DNA of 64,000 nt from Bombyx mori (lineage: Eukaryota; Arthropoda; Insecta; Lepidoptera; Bombycidae), in the NCBI RefSeq assembly GCF_030269925.1, contig NC_085131.1, positions 4,938,501 to 5,002,500 on the forward strand, given 5' to 3'. This document shows positions 18,876 through 54,308 of this stretch, piece after piece (the first letter of the stretch is position 1; each line of letters begins with the position of its first letter). The notes under the pieces were generated by a model. The model was not told the DNA's origin, made no database searches, and saw only the letters and a program-made list of their open reading frames with translations. The position numbers and the translations under genes were made by a program.

Positions 18876-20291
18876 TTAGGTTGCACGTCGACCTCTTTGT
18901 CGAGTTCGACGAGTACGGGTACCGGGGTCCCTAAGCCTGCTCCTAGTATTAGAGCTGAAGGCATCTAATGCAAAGGTTATTGGATCTGATGGATCCGTAA
19001 GGACGTGTCTAGGGCGTCGACGGTGACTGGCTCCTGCGTGATCAGGATTCGGGGAGTAGTCAGCGGCGGCAACGATAAGGCGATTATCATGACGCATAGC
19101 CTTATCGAAGTATCGTTCTGACGCTGACTTCATGTATTTCCGAATTGATTCGAGGCCCAGGTCGTCGTGTAGGTCAACGTTCCTCACGAACCACGGAGCC
19201 CCGACAGCTAACCTGCAAAAGCGGGATTGTAGGGATTGGAGGGTGTCTATGTGTGTGCGGGCCGCGTGAGCGAACACCACACTCGCGTAAGTCATGACGA
19301 GCCTTATGCAAGTTTTGTAAAGTGTCACCTTGTTCCGAAGGGACATTTTACTCCGCTTACAGATCATGGGGTAGAGTCTACCGAGAATAAACGCGGCACG
19401 GTCACGGACTGATTTTATATGCGGGCGGAATGTCATCGATGCATCCAGGGTAACGCCCAGGTACTTGACCTTCCTGGCCCAGGGTATGGGTTGTCTAAAG
19501 AGAGTAATCGGGGGTGTGAGATTCCTCCTCCTAATCCGGGAGGAAATCCGTGAGGAGCTTCCCCTCTGAAATAGCACCGCAGTACTTTTCGATGGGTTGA
19601 TGTCTATGCGCCATTTTCGGAACCACTGTCCTAGGGCTAGGGCTGCGCTCTGAAGCTTCTTCGCGATTAGGGACTTATTTCTACTAGAATAGTAAACAGT
19701 CGTGTCGTCGGCGAATAAAGCTAAATGGGTCGGCGGCGACCGGGGAATATCGTTGACGAATAAGCTAAATAGGAGGGGTGAGAGGACAGAGCCTTGTGGG
19801 ACTCCAGCTGTGAGAGGTCGTGGGGAGGAGCGGGTACCCTCGACTCGATATCGAAAAGAGCGGTTCGACAAGAAGTCCCGTATGATGAGCACGAGACTAT
19901 CCGGCACGCCCATGTTGAATAGTTTGAAAATCAAACCATTGTGCCAGATTTTGTCGAACGCTTTTGCGACGTCGAAGAAGAGAGCTCCCGTGTATAACGG
20001 TTTTGGTCGATTAAGCCCCACAAGAATGTGCTCCGTGAGGCGGTGCACCTGTTGAACGCATGAGTGATTTGTACGGAATCCGAATTGTTCATCGATGAGA
20101 ATGCCCTTGGATGAGACGAAGTCTCTGAGGCGTTTGTAGATCAGACGCTCATACAGTTTGCCTAGAGACATGAGGAGGCTAATCGGGCGGTAGCTCGTCG
20201 GATGATTTTTTTGGTTTACCGGGCTTATGTATGCCGATAACGTCCGCTTCTTTCCACACCGCGGGAAAGATACAGTTCGCCATAGCGGCAT
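18876..20291 (-). CDS. LINE ORF2, C-terminal part: reverse transcriptase
   Basis: This 471-codon frame carries the palm of the reverse transcriptase that would copy the element RNA at the nicked target. Visible blocks: SYRPISLL (about 33-40), EQFGFR (68-73), FFDVAKAFDKIWH (105-117, first catalytic Asp), GVPQGSVLSPLLF (163-175) and FADD (193-196, the YxDD box with Phe). A basic C-terminal tail of about 200 residues follows, ending TAA at 18876. The first 27 or so residues are out-of-frame sequence: the true protein runs in from the 20179-21759 frame and switches at the T7 run 20206-20212. It should be read as half of one ORF2, not as a separate gene. Confidence 0.85.
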   Translation of the reverse strand: MPLWRTVSFPRCGKKRTLSAYISPVNQKNHPTSYRPISLLMSLGKLYERLIYKRLRDFVSSKGILIDEQFGFRTNHSCVQQVHRLTEHILVGLNRPKPLYTGALFFDVAKAFDKIWHNGLIFKLFNMGVPDSLVLIIRDFLSNRSFRYRVEGTRSSPRPLTAGVPQGSVLSPLLFSLFVNDIPRSPPTHLALFADDTTVYYSSRNKSLIAKKLQSAALALGQWFRKWRIDINPSKSTAVLFQRGSSSRISSRIRRRNLTPPITLFRQPIPWARKVKYLGVTLDASMTFRPHIKSVRDRAAFILGRLYPMICKRSKMSLRNKVTLYKTCIRLVMTYASVVFAHAARTHIDTLQSLQSRFCRLAVGAPWFVRNVDLHDDLGLESIRKYMKSASERYFDKAMRHDNRLIVAAADYSPNPDHAGASHRRRPRHVLTDPSDPITFALDAFSSNTRSRLRDPGTRTRRTRQRGRRAT

Positions 20292-21759
20292 TGAAAATAG
20301 ATGCCAACATCACGATGAGTTGGACGGGTAGAAGTTTAATAACGCGGTTAGATATACCGTCGGAACCGGGAGCCTTGCGAGGACGTAGGTCTTTGATCAA
20401 GTCTTTAACTTCCATCGGGGTGACGGGTGGTAACGCATCCGAGGGTGGCAAGGAGGCTCTGCGTTCTACCTCACTGTCTACTAATTCTACATGAACAGGG
20501 TCTACGGATTGAGTGCTGGGCGTGCACTGGGTTTGCAATGTATCGGCCAGTAGCTCTGCTTTTTCGTCATCATCGAACGCCACGAGTCGGCCTGAGGGGC
20601 CTACGAGGGGGGGCATAGTTACTACCGTATCCGATTTGAGAGTACGAGCTAAGCGGTAGTAAGACCTTTGGGAGGGCGCGAGTCTTTCTAAGAAATCAGA
20701 CCATCTGGCATCTCGGACTTCGGCGATGCGAGACTTTACGTCGCGTTGTAGGGCACGCATTCGAATACGATTATCCACGGTAGGATACCTATCGTAGGCG
20801 CGGATCGACGCGTTCTTAGCTCTAAGGAGTTCCCTAATATCGTCGGGCAATTTGAAGCGGTGAAGGAAGTCCTCCGCTACAACTTGTTTCGATGATCTAT
20901 CTAATGTCGAGGTGATGTGTGACGTTAAGATGTCTATGGCTTCAGCGGTATCCTGAGGAGACGGGGTAGAGTCCGGGTTAAACGGGAGCGATGGTGGATC
21001 AGATTCAGCCAGGCTGATGCCCAGCGTGTGCCAATCCACCACAGTCCTCGTGACGGGAACGGAATCGGGAGCGCGACCGAGCTTCATAACGACGGGACGG
21101 TGGTCTGAATCTAACTCTGAAACTACTTCGATCGAGTGTAAGCGCAGAGTTACGTTTTTTAATAACGCTATGTCGAGTATATCCGGGCGATGCGCGATAT
21201 TTAGCGGGTAGTGAGTCGGGGTTAGCGGAGCGACGATATCGAAGGCGAGATCATCGACTAACGCGTCAAGCCGCCTGCCATTCGGGGTTGTGGTGTGTGA
21301 GTTCCACCTGACGTGTTTACAATTTAGGTCGCCCGCCAGAATGACAGAGCTTCCCATGCCGAGCAGCGCCTCGATATCACTGCTTAGAACGATCTTATCC
21401 GGTGGAAGATAGACGGACGCGATAACGATCGGCGCGTGTCCAGTCAGTGAGATTCGGCATACTGATGCTTCGATGTTAGAAAGCGCGGGGGGGTCGAGAG
21501 GGACGCAGTGCAGGGCTCGTCTATAGTAAATGACGGTACCACCACCACGAGCAGTAAGCCTGTCGTTCCTAACCATGTTATAGTTCGCGATTTTAGGGTC
21601 GCGGCGCGCGGGCTTAAGCAGGGTCTCCTGCACCAAAAAGATGTCAATTTGATGGTCACGCAAAAAATCACAAACCTGATCACGTTGATTTGCGAGACCG
21701 TAAGCGTTAAAAAATCCTATCGTTACGGATAGGGGCTTTATTCTACTTATGTACGCCAT
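20179..21759 (-). CDS. LINE ORF2, N-terminal part: AP endonuclease and RT start
   Basis: This 526-codon frame begins with ATG 21757-21759. Residues 1-230 form an apurinic-like endonuclease that nicks the target: VQETLL (43-48, metal-binding Glu), GDLNCKH (143-149), RPDILDIAL (191-199) and SDHRPV (218-223, catalytic Asp-His). A linker follows, and then the RT N-terminus with RPRKAPGSDGI at about 459-469. After GIHKPGKPK the frame leaves the homologous path and ends 10 codons later. One surplus base in a homopolymer (plus-strand T7, 20206-20212) explains this, since homology resumes at once in the next frame. The ATG lies three bases after the ORF1 stop and in the same frame, which suggests stop-restart translation. 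Confidence 0.85.
   Translation of the reverse strand: MAYISRIKPLSVTIGFFNAYGLANQRDQVCDFLRDHQIDIFLVQETLLKPARRDPKIANYNMVRNDRLTARGGGTVIYYRRALHCVPLDPPALSNIEASVCRISLTGHAPIVIASVYLPPDKIVLSSDIEALLGMGSSVILAGDLNCKHVRWNSHTTTPNGRRLDALVDDLAFDIVAPLTPTHYPLNIAHRPDILDIALLKNVTLRLHSIEVVSELDSDHRPVVMKLGRAPDSVPVTRTVVDWHTLGISLAESDPPSLPFNPDSTPSPQDTAEAIDILTSHITSTLDRSSKQVVAEDFLHRFKLPDDIRELLRAKNASIRAYDRYPTVDNRIRMRALQRDVKSRIAEVRDARWSDFLERLAPSQRSYYRLARTLKSDTVVTMPPLVGPSGRLVAFDDDEKAELLADTLQTQCTPSTQSVDPVHVELVDSEVERRASLPPSDALPPVTPMEVKDLIKDLRPRKAPGSDGISNRVIKLLPVQLIVMLASIFNAAMANCIFPAVWKEADVIGIHKPGKPKKSSDELPPD
20206..20212 (-). other. ORF2 frameshift site (homopolymer)
   Basis: Seven T on the plus strand (seven A in the ORF). 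Six would keep a single ORF2 across the RPRKAPGSDG and SYRPISLL blocks. It could be a real mutation or a sequencing error. Confidence 0.8.
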
Positions 21760-21762
21760 TGA

Positions 21763-23604
21763 TTACCGGCGGAGTGAGGGGAGGACGTACGTATTTAACG
21801 ACGCGTATACGTCAGCGTATTCTTGCACAACGGCGATGAAGTGTTGTGCAGTGGAGGCGGCGCGAATGGCGTCACCCAAAGCATTAACACGCTCAAAGTT
21901 GATCGACTGAAAAAAGTCGATCGCTAGAGCGAGATTGTCGGACGCGGTCGGAGTGCTGGTCGCGGGGGAGGAACGAATCACGGGGGAGGGACGTATCGCG
22001 GGGGCGGGACGAATCGCGGGGGAGGGAGCTACAGCCGTGTTCGTGTACGGCAACGGTTTAGCCCAGGCCGAGCCGCTGGGCACCGGCGCCGGCACGAAGG
22101 CAGGCTTAGCCTTCGGCACAGAGGGTGCCGTGGCTTTGATGTCAGGGCCGGAAGCTCGGAGGCGGTTTTGGCGCGCGACGCGGCGATTTATTTTAGGGGC
22201 TCGGGGGCATCCACGGTAATTCGCGGGGTGACCCTGTGTTCGGCACAGGACGCAGCTAGGTGGTTCAGTCGCGGTTTTTTGATCGCGAGTGCAAAGAGTC
22301 GTGGAGTGATCGTCCAAACACTTGACGCATCGAGGGCGCGCGTGACAATTACGGGAAGAATGCCCGTACAACTGACAATTGTGGCACTGGCTCGGAGTGC
22401 CTTTTTTATGAGGGGTTTCCACAGTGATTCCGGAAAGCCTACAGACCGTTCGGACGTTAAAGATTTGTTTACCTTCGGGGGTAGACTGGAGGGCGACGAG
22501 AACCATATTGTATGGCTCCCTCCCGCGTCCTGTGTGCATGCGGTGCACGGAGTTTACGGGTAGGCCTTGTTCGAGTAGGTCGGCCTTTACGAGCTCGGCA
22601 TCTAACTCCTTGGGGATGCCACGTATGACTGCACGGAGCTCACGCTCCTCCTGGAGCGTATACGTATGATAACTTATACGCTCCTTTCGGAGGTAGCTTG
22701 AGAGGGCTCTATGGTCGTCGGGTGTTGCTACTTTTATTTGTATCCCGTTCGCGAGGTTACGGGCACTGACAAAATTTATGTTATTGGCCTTAAGGGCCAG
22801 GGAGACACGGTCCCAAGCAGCCTTCTCTTGAAGAATTAACGGAGGAGGGGCCGTTTGTGCCACCGGGCGCGGCGACGGCGTGGCACGGGGACAGGGAGCG
22901 ACGGGGGTCGGAGGGCGGGGGCGCGACGCGTTCGCGGCTTTGCTTATTTTAGCGGCCGCGGAAGCTCGGGACTCCGCGGCGCGCTTCTTACCCTTTTGCA
23001 CGAGGGTGAATCCATCTGTCAATGAGGCGGGAACGAGGTCAACCTCCATATCCGAGTCAGAGTCGGAGGACGAGGAGGAAGGCGCGGGAGCGGCGGACGC
23101 GACGGAGGCCGCAGACGATCGCTGAGGTATAACGGAAGCTGCCGCGGTAGACGCGGGAGTTTTTCGCGGGAGTATGGGTGACACGGGTGTGCTGGGCGCG
23201 ACGGAGGCTGCGGTGTACGGCGCGGGAGATTTGCGCGCGCTTGCAGGGGACGCGGGAATGGCAGGCGTGGCGGAAACGGCGGTCGCGGCGGGCACGGCAG
23301 AACAGTTCACGGCGCGTTTAGCTTTGTAAGCTAAAAATTCTGTTTCGAGGGCCGGGTATTTCTCGCTTAAGAATTCCGCGAGCAGTGTGTTGGTTGGAGA
23401 GAACTCCATTTCTTCGGACTGCCCAGGGGGGGCTGCCCCGGGACTTAAACACGCGCTCGCCTTGCGGCGAGGCCCCTGCGTCGGTAACACTAAATTGGCC
23501 GAAGCGATTCTAGGAATTTTAGAAATTTTAGTGAATAGATTAAATATAATAGAATTAGAGTGAATAGAACCACTGCACAGTTCCCGGGCGGCAATGCCTT
23601 GCAA
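21763..23604 (-). CDS. LINE ORF1, gag-like RNA-binding protein
   Basis: The frame is 613 codons and would coat the element RNA in a ribonucleoprotein. A long Ala/Pro/Ser-rich low-complexity part (about 100-255, with an acidic serine stretch SSSSDSDSDMEVD near 186) precedes an RRM-like middle (about 265-400). Three zinc knuckles follow at about 407-466: CHNCQLYGHSSRNC, CVKCLDDHSTTLC and CVLCRTQGHPANYRGC, the last being diagnostic of Jockey-type gag. A proline-rich repeat (PAIRPAPAIRPSPVIR) leads to a helical C-terminus. I favour Met66 (codon at 23409) as start, since the first 65 residues look like translated 5' UTR. Stop TAA at 21763-21765 is followed by ORF2 after one sense codon. Confidence 0.85.
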   Translation of the reverse strand: MQGIAARELCSGSIHSNSIIFNLFTKISKIPRIASANLVLPTQGPRRKASACLSPGAAPPGQSEEMEFSPTNTLLAEFLSEKYPALETEFLAYKAKRAVNCSAVPAATAVSATPAIPASPASARKSPAPYTAASVAPSTPVSPILPRKTPASTAAASVIPQRSSAASVASAAPAPSSSSSDSDSDMEVDLVPASLTDGFTLVQKGKKRAAESRASAAAKISKAANASRPRPPTPVAPCPRATPSPRPVAQTAPPPLILQEKAAWDRVSLALKANNINFVSARNLANGIQIKVATPDDHRALSSYLRKERISYHTYTLQEERELRAVIRGIPKELDAELVKADLLEQGLPVNSVHRMHTGRGREPYNMVLVALQSTPEGKQIFNVRTVCRLSGITVETPHKKGTPSQCHNCQLYGHSSRNCHARPRCVKCLDDHSTTLCTRDQKTATEPPSCVLCRTQGHPANYRGCPRAPKINRRVARQNRLRASGPDIKATAPSVPKAKPAFVPAPVPSGSAWAKPLPYTNTAVAPSPAIRPAPAIRPSPVIRSSPATSTPTASDNLALAIDFFQSINFERVNALGDAIRAASTAQHFIAVVQEYADVYASLNTYVLPSLRR

Positions 23605-26708: not shown

Positions 26709-27113
26709 CTAGCTTCTGCCCGCGACTTCGTCCGCGTGGAATAGTTCACAAATAATTCTTTATTTTAGAACAAATTTGGTTAGCATAAAAAACGTTATAG
26801 TGAGTCAACCTTAACATATAGACATATGCTGTCGCGGACTTTTTTTAGATCTTTTAAAGGGGAACAATTTTGTCATACATTATTTTAGCGAAACTTTAAC
26901 CGTTTCTAAAGCACACGCAGCGGAAGCTCTCAAAAGAAAAGAAAAAAACGATTTTGAAACATTCTTTATTGGTGCTCCTTTTGTATTGGTATTAGTGCGA
27001 TGTTATATAGCCTATAGCCTTCCTCGATAAATGGACTATCTAACACTCAAAGATTTTTTCAAATCGCGCGTTCAAACGAACAAACTCTTCAGCTTTATAA
27101 TATCAGTATAGAT
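26709..27113 (+). repeat. Interspersed repeat, family J (RTE-like tail)
   Basis: Starts CTAGCTTCTGCCCGCGACTT and ends CTTTATAATATCAGTATAGA, the classic frame of insect RTE-like 3' ends. Single copy here. Confidence 0.55.
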
Positions 27114-41955: not shown

Positions 41956-41962
41956 GAAGCAT

Positions 41963-42368
41963 TTTTGGAACGAAGTTCCTTATGGGACGATGCGGAGGGG
42001 TACCCTAACCGGAAAAACACGTCCGTAACGTAAGATTTTTATTTTATTATTTATATATAGTCTTAGTATGATGACTATACAGTGTCTCATGTATAGTCTA
42101 CGTGATGACGGTTATTAATATTATTCATATAAATAGCTGTTTCTTTGTATATTATTATTTTATATTTTTTATAAATCATTGTGGATAAAATAAAGTTGAT
42201 AACTTTGTAAAGTAGTTTATTTATTTATTTTTATCAATAAAAATATCATAATAAAAAAATGTATACCCGAATAATTGTTTTCTTTATACCTCGAACAGAA
42301 CATAAAATAAATATTTTTATAATAACGAACTTCGTTCCTATCCGGTGTCCCACAACACCACACATTTT
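41963..42368 (+). mobile_element. MITE-like element, copy 1
   Basis: Bounded by GGAACGAAGTTCC on the left and, on the right, GAACTTCGTTCC followed by GTGTCCCACAACACCACACA. Both ends match the element at 52975-53402 in the opposite orientation (ACGTCCGTAACGTAAGATTT; ATACCCGAATAATTG). The core (about 42050-42210) is AT-rich and differs from that of the other copy. No transposase. Confidence 0.7.
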
Positions 42369-42372
42369 TTTT

Positions 42373-49930: not shown

Positions 49931-50103
49931 GTGTGCTTAGTGTCAGGTTTTTAACGTTCTCGATAACGTAAAAGTTAACTCAAATTTGTATGGAGTTGGA
50001 AAGTTTGCTTACGTTTGCCGCTAGGGGCGCTGTTCCAACTGCATACAAATTTGAATTAACTTTTACGGTATCGAAAACGGTAAAATACTCGCACTAAGCA
50101 CAC
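49931..50103. mobile_element. Hairpin MITE, 173 bp
   Basis: GTGTGCTTAGTG at the left end and CACTAAGCACAC at the right are exact inverted ends. Inverted similarity continues inward about 70 bp (AACTCAAATTTGTATGGAGT against the complement of GCATACAAATTTGAATTAAC), around a short loop with GCCGCTAGGGGCGCTG. No coding capacity. The clear boundaries suggest a non-autonomous DNA transposon of unknown superfamily. Confidence 0.75.
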
Positions 50104-51410: not shown

Positions 51411-52974
51411 GTGTCATTTAGCGATTAATCGTATCGTTATCGTACACTATCGTATCGTATAGTAAAATAATACATTTCGACACATTGCCGTAGACGCAAG
51501 GAGTTGTCTCGGGCGTTCTCATTTGCTAATGCAGTTTGCTCTCTTGTGCCTCGAATGTGTGTTATTCATGTAACATTCTATTCATACATTTTATTTAATT
51601 AAACGTTATATATAATTTCAGAGTTTGTGAATGCCATGCTATCATAGAGATATGAATGTGGAGTTTTCCTCGTTTGTTATGAAAGGAGAATGACTTTGGG
51701 GCATTTCGTTGACTCTTTGTGTCGTGTATGTTGGATGTTCCGGCGGCTAATTGCTAAATATGGGTCATACTTTGTTGATTTTATGTTCGTTACTATATCC
51801 GACATTCAAGATCTCATATTTTGTAACTGAAAAAGTCGTGACGTAATGTCGATGTCGTCGATGAGCGTAAGACCATGGAAAGTGATCAGAAATTATATCT
51901 TTTTAAAGTCGTTAATCAATTGACCATCGAATTCATGACCGGTGACGTCACTCGGAAAGCTATTTGTTTAACAAAAAATGTGCGCAGAATTTTCCAATAT
52001 CTCATTCCGTAAAACAAATAAAGTTTTGTCAACAATAATATATTATATATATGTAGCTTATATACGATTTATCTTAAAAGAGGTTAATATGTTATAAAGA
52101 TGACATAAATGGAATTTTGAATATTGAATCATCAGAAGAAGGAACATTAGAAATATAAAAGCAATTTGAGATTTTGAAATATAAAAAACATACAAAAGTG
52201 GTGAAGCAATAGCTTTAAATGTTGTTTCTCTTTATAGAGCAACTCAATTTGTCCTATAGTTTTACTAAGCTAAACTGTATTTTGATGTAAATGAAATAAT
52301 ACATTACATATATACTAGCAATAGACCAGAAACGTCAGAGTTGAGACATGAATTCAAAGTCTTTGTTGTATGCATGACATCAATCCAACCCTTTGAAGCG
52401 TCAATAAATGAGTAGGATGGGACTCACCAAACGCCCCACCACCAGGAAAACGTGTATTTCAATTTCAGATTTCAAATTTAAGTATATTTCATTTAGATAC
52501 CTTCCAGACAAATTTAAAAGCCACCCCAATAGCTATTATATCTTTTACCCCATTGGCGTTGTTGAAATATGATTTCAATATCTCATAGACAACGATTTCC
52601 TTTCGCGGAAACAATAGCCACTGTATCGATCATTTGTTTTGTATTGTGTTCCGAATAACAACCCTTGACCGCAGCTTCTATAGTAAATTCTGTTTTGAAA
52701 GGAACTGTGTTTGTTTTCGAAGTATACTTCAGTTATTTCTTGTGTTCTGTTGCAATTGTCCGTCCAATTGGAAGGATTGTCTTTGAGCAAAATGTTCAGT
52801 GAATGCAAATGTTGATACAGTTGTTTACGCTGCAGGAAATGTTGGGCTGCTTAATCGAAATATTGCATAGTTGCAGTAGATAGCTAATAAAGCTAATAAA
52901 GCTTAGTAAGATTTTCGGGAGTTTCCAATACCGTAGATTTGCGATCGATGGCACATTGACAGTAAAAAAAAAGA
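51411..52974. other. No gene seen
   Basis: Long AT-rich stretch, no recognised repeat, only a minus-strand 77-codon ORF (52575-52808) without domain. Confidence 0.35.
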
Positions 52975-53402
52975 TGTGTGGTGTCGTAGGACACCGAATA
53001 GGAACGAAGCCCCTTATTAGAAAAATATTAATTTTCAGTTCTATTCGAGGTATAAAGAAAATAATTATTCGGGTATAAATTTTTTATTATGATTTTTTTA
53101 TCGATAAAAATAAAAATAATCGCAATGGTCAACCACTCCGCCGTACAATGGAGTAGCCTCGCCCTGGGGGAACCGCCTGCATAATCACGGCATCCCTTGC
53201 GCCAGGTAAGTATGATTTAGCAAGAGAAATACGAGAACGTCTATCAACTGTGTAACATCTCGTCACCGCGATTCTGGAATTGTTGAATCTACGTGCAGTG
53301 ACATCTGTTGATAACAAAATAATAGAAAAAATCTTACGTTACGGACGTTTTTTCCCGGTTAGGATAACCCTCCGCACCGTCCTATAAGGAACTTCGTTCC
53401 AA
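52975..53402 (-). mobile_element. MITE-like element carrying U1 snRNA sequence
   Basis: Same family as 41963-42368 by both ends (GGAACGAAGTTCC side at 53388-53400; GTGTCGTAGGACACCG and GGAACGAAG side at 52981-53010). The core, about 53115-53330, is different and contains a U1 snRNA-like segment plus about 110 bp of upstream sequence of unknown origin. The 62-codon minus-strand ORF across it is an accident. Confidence 0.75.
53115..53213 (-). pseudogene. U1: U1 snRNA 5' portion (pseudogene)
   Basis: The minus strand starts ATACTTACCTGGCGCAAGGG, the invariant U1 5' end that pairs with 5' splice sites. Stem-loop I follows with GATTATGCAGG (GATCACGAAGG in typical U1, so the U1-70K loop is altered), then CCCCCAGGGCGAGGCTATTC. 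The stem-loop II region has ATTGTAC in place of ATTGCAC (the U1A site), and GTTGACCATTGCGATTATT comes last. The match stops before the Sm site and stem-loop IV, so only about 99 of about 164 nt remain. Identity is from known U1 sequence recalled by motif. It cannot form a normal U1 particle without the Sm site. Confidence 0.88.
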
Positions 53403-54308
53403 AAAAAAATGGCGACAAGAATGCCTTAAGTCTTTAAGCGGCTATCATCGGTAGACGTGCTCAGAGTCTACCTGGTGTTAAGTGGTTAATGAAACGCATA
53501 TGCAATCGGACTCACCACGTGAATAACTTCACCGTATTGCGAATACCTTTTCAGACGTCAAACCGGAAACCAGGCTATTATTTAAAGCCTAATATAATTG
53601 CTACAACTATAGCTCTTATCAGAGCTCATGTATTTTATATGTAAGCGTCCGTATATTGAATAATTTTAGTGAGCAGCGCATACCCACATAAAGAATATTG
53701 CCAAATATTGATTCATAATTCATATAAATTGATTTAAAATACCCCACTCAAATTGATTTGTAAATAGCCATTTGCCGAATTGAATTATAGTAAGCCATTA
53801 AAATCAGTGTTGCAATTTGTTACATCCATAATTTGTCGCCAAATAAAAGAAACTCGCATTACGATAGACGGAAAAAAAAATGTTTCGGCATACAATATTC
53901 GCACAAAAGTAGCAACATTCATATATTTGATACAGATTTATTGCGATCCGTATTTCATCGGTCGGAGACGATTTTGACCGTCAAATAAGTTGGAAACGAA
54001 ACATCCATTAGGCGTAATGGATTGTTACAATAGTAGGGAGAGTTCTCAGCGTCAATCACGAGCGCCGGGTCTTCATTTTCGACGACAATGCGAACAGAAT
54101 TAGTGTTAGATATTCCAGAGCCGCGGTCGTCTTATTGCGAAATCACTAAGAATGTATGTTTTTTTCGAGAATCAAAATTGTATTGTAGTTGAAATTATTC
54201 TATTGTACTTTTGGTGGTGCTTTAACGAGCAATTGTTTTGTGGTAAACGATTTTTTTTTTGTAATGTTGGCAATGTTAAATATGCGATTATTACCGTAGC
54301 CATAATAA
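53403..54308. other. No gene seen; Bm1-like trace
   Basis: 53455-53575 weakly follows the minus-strand Bm1 order (GTAGACGTGCTCAGAG, CTACCTGGTGTTAAGTGG). The rest is unrecognised. Confidence 0.35.

Follow-up and report, generated by a model that had tools for sequence, protein, structure and literature searches.

A putative non-autonomous Helentron of the silkworm Bombyx mori carries the promoter and the 5′ part of a U1 snRNA gene

In the silkworm, a short mobile element with many copies contains the promoter and the first part of a U1 snRNA gene, and we consider it very probable that a non-autonomous Helentron (HINE) captured this stretch of gene DNA, underwent internal deletions, and was then amplified. 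One copy lies in the window, by which we mean the whole stretch of 64,000 nucleotides analysed here (C25:4938501-5002500 in our own-genome search space of 461.7 Mb and 30 contigs). There, the whole element occupies 52966–53405 on the minus strand, with its 5′ end at 53405 and its 3′ end at 52966, both ends being common to 22 of 29 other loci, and the consensus of its copies is 441 bp long. The preliminary description had placed a U1 portion within a mobile element, and this holds, given that copies with the same ends were found both with and without U1. Not part of that description were the U1 promoter of some 120 bp, the number of copies, the forms that extend to the Sm site, and another type of element around this core.

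The U1 part of the window copy comprises nucleotides 1–98 of the snRNA, running on the minus strand from its exact 5′ end at 53213 to 53116, as aligned by cmscan to the model RF00003 with 49.9 bits and an E value of 1.6e-11. The gathering score of the family is 69.5, which this 3′-truncated piece does not reach, since its true match is limited to roughly the first 98 nucleotides; at that threshold the copy falls outside membership of the full model. Being sub-gathering, the U1 match is omitted by a default scan of the whole window, which gives two mir-2807 family matches only (49975–50059, on both strands, with 89 and 67.3 bits); the sequence at that place is an inverted repeat and may represent a small palindromic element instead of just a miRNA gene. 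The RF00003 alignment includes neither the Sm site nor stem-loop IV; the window copy represents a fragment of a U1 gene and not the gene itself. Some 99 nucleotides of U1 from the exact 5′ end, on the minus strand and lacking the Sm site and stem-loop IV, had been reported from the letters beforehand, and the covariance model bears out these claims, the RF00003 match that had been proposed as a check being present, though sub-gathering. In the consensus of the 23 copies used for comparison with U1 genes, the 98 nucleotides are identical at 95 positions to the U1 genes L005 and L010 of the same genome; therefore, the segment is U1, and a chance likeness is dismissed. The three differences from L005 are clustered in the loop of stem-loop I, and the window copy additionally has a mutated loop in stem-loop II, with ATTGTACG in place of ATTGCACT. 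Read on the plus strand, the U1 5′ end gives the reverse complement CAGGTAAGTAT (53203–53213), an 11-nt sequence fully complementary to the 5′ end of U1 and found only once in the window when both strands are searched; transcription in this direction would turn it into a consensus 5′ splice site.

The likeness to U1 genes does not stop at the start of the RNA. The RF00003 search of the genome, in which the best 42 of 4649 first-look candidates were scored, gave nine loci with at least 141 bits, eight of which (L003–L010) entered the comparison of U1 genes, while L060 was left out. Aligned to the U1 gene L004 from −120 to +99, the copy consensus is identical in 196 of 220 columns, with 22 mismatches and 2 gaps, and the captured promoter from −1 to −120 corresponds to window positions 53214–53333 (minus strand); with the other seven U1 genes, the best local alignment begins between −62 and −97. 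Near −60, all eight U1 genes compared have the block ATCGCG[N]TGACGAGAT, which, by its name and place in insect snRNA genes, we take to be the PSEA promoter element. The window copy carries this PSEA-like block as ATCGCGGTGACGAGAT (53257–53272, minus strand) at the same position as in true U1 genes, the only such site in the window at up to 2 mismatches, and the copy consensus also has it at the distance found in the genes, with a G at the variable N that none of the eight genes has. Insect snRNA promoters are known to carry a conserved PSEA (PMC9841428). Judging from the promoter alignment, the donor is a U1 gene with an L004-type promoter, and the donor signals are split, with the promoter nearest to L004 and the coding part nearer to L005 and L010 (95/98 vs. 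91/98 for L004).

Since the homology to a U1 gene continues through the promoter to −120, it was U1 gene DNA that was captured, and not reverse-transcribed U1 RNA. A truncated retropseudogene that landed in a repeat by chance would account for the match beginning at the exact 5′ end of the RNA and being truncated at its 3′ side, and 3′-truncated snRNA pseudogenes do share such an exact start and shortened end; but we give this explanation next to no chance, because a retropseudogene has its homology confined to the RNA, whereas here it runs 120 bp upstream of the RNA start, and because the U1 segment is common to the members of a repeat family and occurs with longer 3′ forms in the same element. 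For the family of the U1 element, a simple U1 retropseudogene is thus refuted by the promoter homology, and a U1-headed SINE is likewise ruled out, given that the element retains promoter DNA upstream of U1. The snRNA-headed SINEs (SINEU) and the U6 snRNA pseudogenes generated by L1 likewise owe the dispersal of their snRNA sequence to a mobile element; both are RNA-level events without upstream promoter DNA.

Other U1-like sequences of the genome deserve mention here. L060 (C6:9699320, 141 bits) is a near-intact U1 gene, and next to it 38 nt are identical to a repeat also flanking the L032 copy, where this repeat is present twice; the 38 nt were considered as an element end and rejected as a separate repeat. 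The loci L051, L054, L056, L057, and L058 are U1-like without the ends of the U1 element, and the match of L051 to a U1 gene extends from about −3 to +204, beyond the 3′ end of the RNA, so that a simple RNA-derived pseudogene is ruled out there. In ten lepidopteran species including B. mori, qPCR gave 2–31 U1 genes per haploid genome (PMC8190105), which is in keeping with the nine full-length U1 matches found here and with element copies having been left out of that range.

The copy family was searched with the core of the element (53325–53100, 226 nt) as the query, and the best 40 of 664 first-look candidates show 89–100% identity over at least 209 of the 226 nucleotides, the one at 100% being the window copy itself. 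Among 29 further loci (L012–L040), 22 contain the element from end to end, four are cut or split (L022, L028, L029, and L036), and three have the core only, inside another element (L017, L032, and L040); hence, the other genomic copies with the same ends plus U1 that the preliminary description had proposed to look for do exist, with both ends kept at 22 of 29. Ten more copies (L041–L050) were added, nine of them matching the element fully or nearly end to end and L045 lacking the last part, and the set used for conservation comprises 33 copies. The RF00003 scores of the scanned copies of the 98-nt form vary from 35.2 bits in L042 to 72.5 in L044 and 74.2 in L030, the latter two exceeding the gathering score of 69.5 despite holding only this form; the core-only L017 has 64.6 bits. 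About 0.9 kb from the copy in L030, a mir-3389 family match of 96.6 bits was also seen (L030 480–548). The three core-only loci represent a second type of element with other termini, which has this U1 core with its 98-nt junction unchanged, in about 480–500 bp around the core, and which shows the 5′ palindrome GAAGTGAAACTTC and a 3′ end reading AAGTTTCACTTC followed by a hairpin-like GTGTG...CACAC.

With respect to the class of the element, the term “MITE-like” of the preliminary description was right about a mobile element and has to be replaced as to its kind, given that the ends appear to fit a non-autonomous Helentron better than a MITE. Behind the TTTTT terminus, the 5′ end has the palindromic subterminal repeat GGAACGAAGTTCCTTAT, which matches exactly in the window copy (53384–53400, minus strand) and is found at four places in the window at up to 3 mismatches vs. 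0.25 expected; one inverted copy with 2 mismatches lies toward the 3′ end (53001–53017, minus strand), and a hairpin GGTGTC-CTAC-GACACC, recognized both as a motif here and in the fold of the 3′ end of the copy consensus, stands ahead of the terminal T run (52980–52995, minus strand). In the copy consensus, this hairpin reads GGTGTC-CCAC-GACACC and is followed by ACACATC and the T run. The order of the element is TTTTT-GGAACGAAGTTCC at the start, an inverted copy of GGAACGAAGTTCC about 35 nt from the 3′ end, and the hairpin after it. All 54 copies listed, including two duplicates of window copies, have T runs at both ends, and their flanks otherwise differ.

The insertion sites are consistent with these ends. 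A paralogous empty site for the copy L042 lies in the window itself (26833–27051, minus strand), where the joined flanks of L042 align on both sides across a T-rich site with 76.7% identity and without a duplicated flank, this being the sole two-sided case. A second empty site (L072 vs. L014) aligns mainly on the 3′ side, across the T tract, and a third match (L019 vs. L033) is weak, with 72% identity. No flank duplication other than of Ts was found at the empty sites seen, one two-sided and the other mainly one-sided, and the target is T-rich without a target-site duplication, the T tract blocking an exact count of Ts. HINEs are described as having palindromic subterminal inverted repeats (subTIRs), a 3′ palindrome, a T-rich target, and no target-site modification, and they were formerly called MITEs (PMC4067079); the U1 element resembles HINEs, including DINE-1, in all these features, with subterminal repeats that are close to the 5′ end but set back from the 3′ end, and with its palindrome by the 3′ terminus. 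The distances of these repeats from the termini, 5 nt at the 5′ end and some 35 nt at the 3′ end, fall just outside the 2–4 and 38–60 nt reported for mite HINEs (PMC4067079).

A cut-and-paste MITE that captured U1 DNA by Pack-type transposition would also be short, AT-rich, and present in many copies, with inverted repeats near its ends, as the U1 element is. We regard it as very unlikely, given that terminal inverted repeats at both ends and a duplication of fixed length are missing, and the repeats are instead asymmetric, standing at the 5′ end, yet about 35 nt inside the 3′ end and followed there by a hairpin, while the empty sites seen have no flank duplication beyond Ts; the MITE reading was rejected on this end structure. 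Known families of silkworm MITEs were considered as well and rejected, none of the terminal inverted repeats in the table of BmMITE-1 to -17, 17 families in all, being similar to the U1 element when compared by eye (PMC2997013). As separate observations, viral contigs scanned with the element ends gave one empty scan and another with two 16-base matches (L001 and L002), and the window has, at 18876–23604 on the minus strand, stop-to-stop frames of 477, 527, and 613 amino acids that look by eye like a non-LTR retrotransposon, with reverse transcriptase, endonuclease, and zinc-knuckle parts.

How the putative HINE may have come by its U1 gene piece is indicated by related forms in the same genome. 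The window contains a family member that lacks U1 (41962..42372, plus strand), a sister whose end blocks are 88–90% identical to those of the U1 element, in agreement with the earlier claim of a sister with the same ends and no U1, whose bounds had been given as 41963–42368. When this U1-less element was searched at full length, the best 40 of 2055 first-look candidates in the genome were 90–100% identical; since the ends are shared, some of the 2055 may be copies with U1. The U1-less consensus (20 copies) and the U1-element consensus (33 copies) read alike in their end blocks, and L062, the sole U1-less copy scanned, has no RF00003 match at E 0.001. Among ten other U1-like loci (L051–L060), four hold parts of the U1 element. 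The most complete form, L052, is composed of the 5′ block, the U1 gene sequence, and then the core and the 3′ end of the U1-less element; its U1 stretch has 224 identities in 256 positions with L004, and its U1 part ends after AATTTTTG within the Sm site and diverges beyond, without stem-loop IV. L053 and L055 have internal deletions with U1 retained to about nt 130, L055 lacking most of the 3′ end as well, and in L059 the 5′ block and the promoter are missing. These longer forms score 115.5 (L052), 104.6 (L053), and 91.8 bits (L055) with RF00003. By comparison, the window form has kept U1 nt 1–98 but neither the remainder of U1 nor the U1-less core, and it is best read as a deletion derivative in which the missing Sm site is due to a later internal deletion.

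The preliminary description had left open whether U1 was gained or lost inside a mobile element. The sequence was gained, since it derives from a gene; in the long form L052, a longer U1 stands beside the U1-less core. As for the U1-less copies, they may never have acquired U1 or may have lost it again. The junctions fall in AT-rich stretches common to donor and acceptor, ATTTT on the left and AATTTTT and similar sequences on the right, and we propose filler-DNA repair because these short stretches are shared, a model described for insect Helitrons (PMC6544945). Under such a model, a putative HINE, presumably moved in trans by a rolling-circle transposase, would have taken up into its interior a copy of some 250 bp of a U1 snRNA gene, which extended from about −120, in the snRNA promoter, to about +131, inside the Sm site, with the U1-less form as the likely acceptor. 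The insertion would have occurred at the ATTTTT tract of the element, probably as filler DNA during the repair of a break. Later internal deletions would then have given rise to the shorter forms, and the form with U1 nt 1–98 would have been amplified, the window copy included, its core also entering an element with different termini.

Whether the U1 cargo was merely carried along was considered through the divergence of the 33 copies. Per site, U1 1–11 has 0.050 substitutions (18/363), U1 12–50 has 0.046, and U1 51–98 has 0.048 (76/1579); the values are 0.038 in the PSEA-like block, 0.031–0.034 in the remaining promoter, 0.045 in the tail (147/3270), and 0.057–0.059 in the ends. Outside homopolymers, the promoter has 0.032 (93/2868), U1 has 0.046 (111/2434), and the ends plus tail have 0.053 (206/3915), and a bootstrap over copies gives ratios of 0.45–0.81 for promoter to ends and 0.52–1.00 for promoter to U1; all these values come from copies picked by their similarity to the core that holds the promoter and U1, which lowers the divergence there, and the lower promoter divergence may, therefore, be either a sampling effect or constraint. 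In the 33 copies, the U1 5′ end is no better conserved than the remainder of the element; 22 of them keep ATACTTACCTG, and the exact 19-nt promoter block is kept in 15. The samples of U1-less and U1-carrying elements diverge by 2.9% and 4.6%, respectively, figures that are unusable for age because both samples are top matches.

It could be argued from the copy consensus, with its U1 5′ end intact, its three differences from L005 confined to loop I, and its promoter block in place, and from a promoter less diverged than U1 and the ends, that the U1 promoter or the U1 5′ end serves the element or its host, and that this selected cargo explains the spread of the U1 form. We find this quite unlikely, given that the selection of copies by core similarity lowers the divergence of promoter and U1 by itself, that U1 1–11 and U1 51–98 have diverged like the tail, that the exact 11-nt 5′ end is lost in 11 of 33 copies and the exact promoter block in 18 of 33, and that the U1-less form seems to be abundant too. 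Most likely, the U1 part is passenger cargo that amplified together with the element.

Helentrons with captured gene parts have been described before, and Helentron proteins are reported in B. mori; in Culex, a Helentron captured histone gene fragments (PMC4067079). The cargo of the U1 element differs in being an snRNA gene with its promoter, and snRNA is unmentioned in the main text of that report on HINEs. In the Helitrons of the silkworm, many gene fragments have been captured and new elements have arisen from combining others (PMC3789558). That survey took intact elements by their TC...CTRR ends and captured genes by BLASTX, its main text does not mention snRNA, and owing to this definition and to the protein search a non-coding Helentron cargo would be missed. 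The nearest precedent for promoter or splice donor effects is the bat Helitron HelibatN3, in which the NUBPL promoter was captured along with a splice donor and from which new transcripts arise (PMC4778049). Like the U1 element, HelibatN3 has a captured promoter and gene start amplified by rolling-circle transposition and carries a splice donor; in its case, the promoter is that of a protein gene and the donor is a real sense exon–intron donor, whereas the U1 element has an snRNA promoter and a donor-like antisense of the U1 5′ end (PMC4778049). A different relation to such genes is that of Dada transposons, which target small RNA genes. Among the literature matches listed, none describes snRNA capture by a Helitron or Helentron, their scope not extending to subscription journals and Repbase, where the family may already have a name; promoter capture by Helitrons is already known, and the snRNA cargo looks new.

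As regards consequences, the sequence suggests two possible side effects: ectopic snRNA-type transcription, whose product would be the U1 5′ domain lacking a complete Sm site, and a consensus splice donor that would move with the element on its opposite strand. A transcript offering an intact sequence for pairing with 5′ splice sites had been put forward as a possibility in the preliminary description. A more far-reaching proposal, which we advance as rather improbable, is that Helentrons have distributed many mobile promoters of snRNA type over the genome and that every one of them fires a U1 5′ domain lacking an Sm core, while the antisense strand would provide an 11-nt perfect U1 target, so that splice-donor use and the U1-dependent suppression of premature polyadenylation near insertions could change; if this were true, the lower promoter divergence would be constraint and not a sampling effect. 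A practical caution is that score-based counts of U1-like sequences can include element copies, two of the scanned 98-nt copies passing the Rfam cut-off. In summary, the survey of Helitron captures in the silkworm by protein search (PMC3789558) left non-coding cargo unseen, and the cargo found here is the promoter and the working end of a spliceosomal RNA, dispersed genome-wide. The presence of the U1-less element, the long form, the deletion forms, and the form with other termini in one genome makes a stepwise reconstruction of the capture feasible, and these forms permit a direct test of a captured snRNA promoter, or of an antisense consensus splice donor, at new sites.
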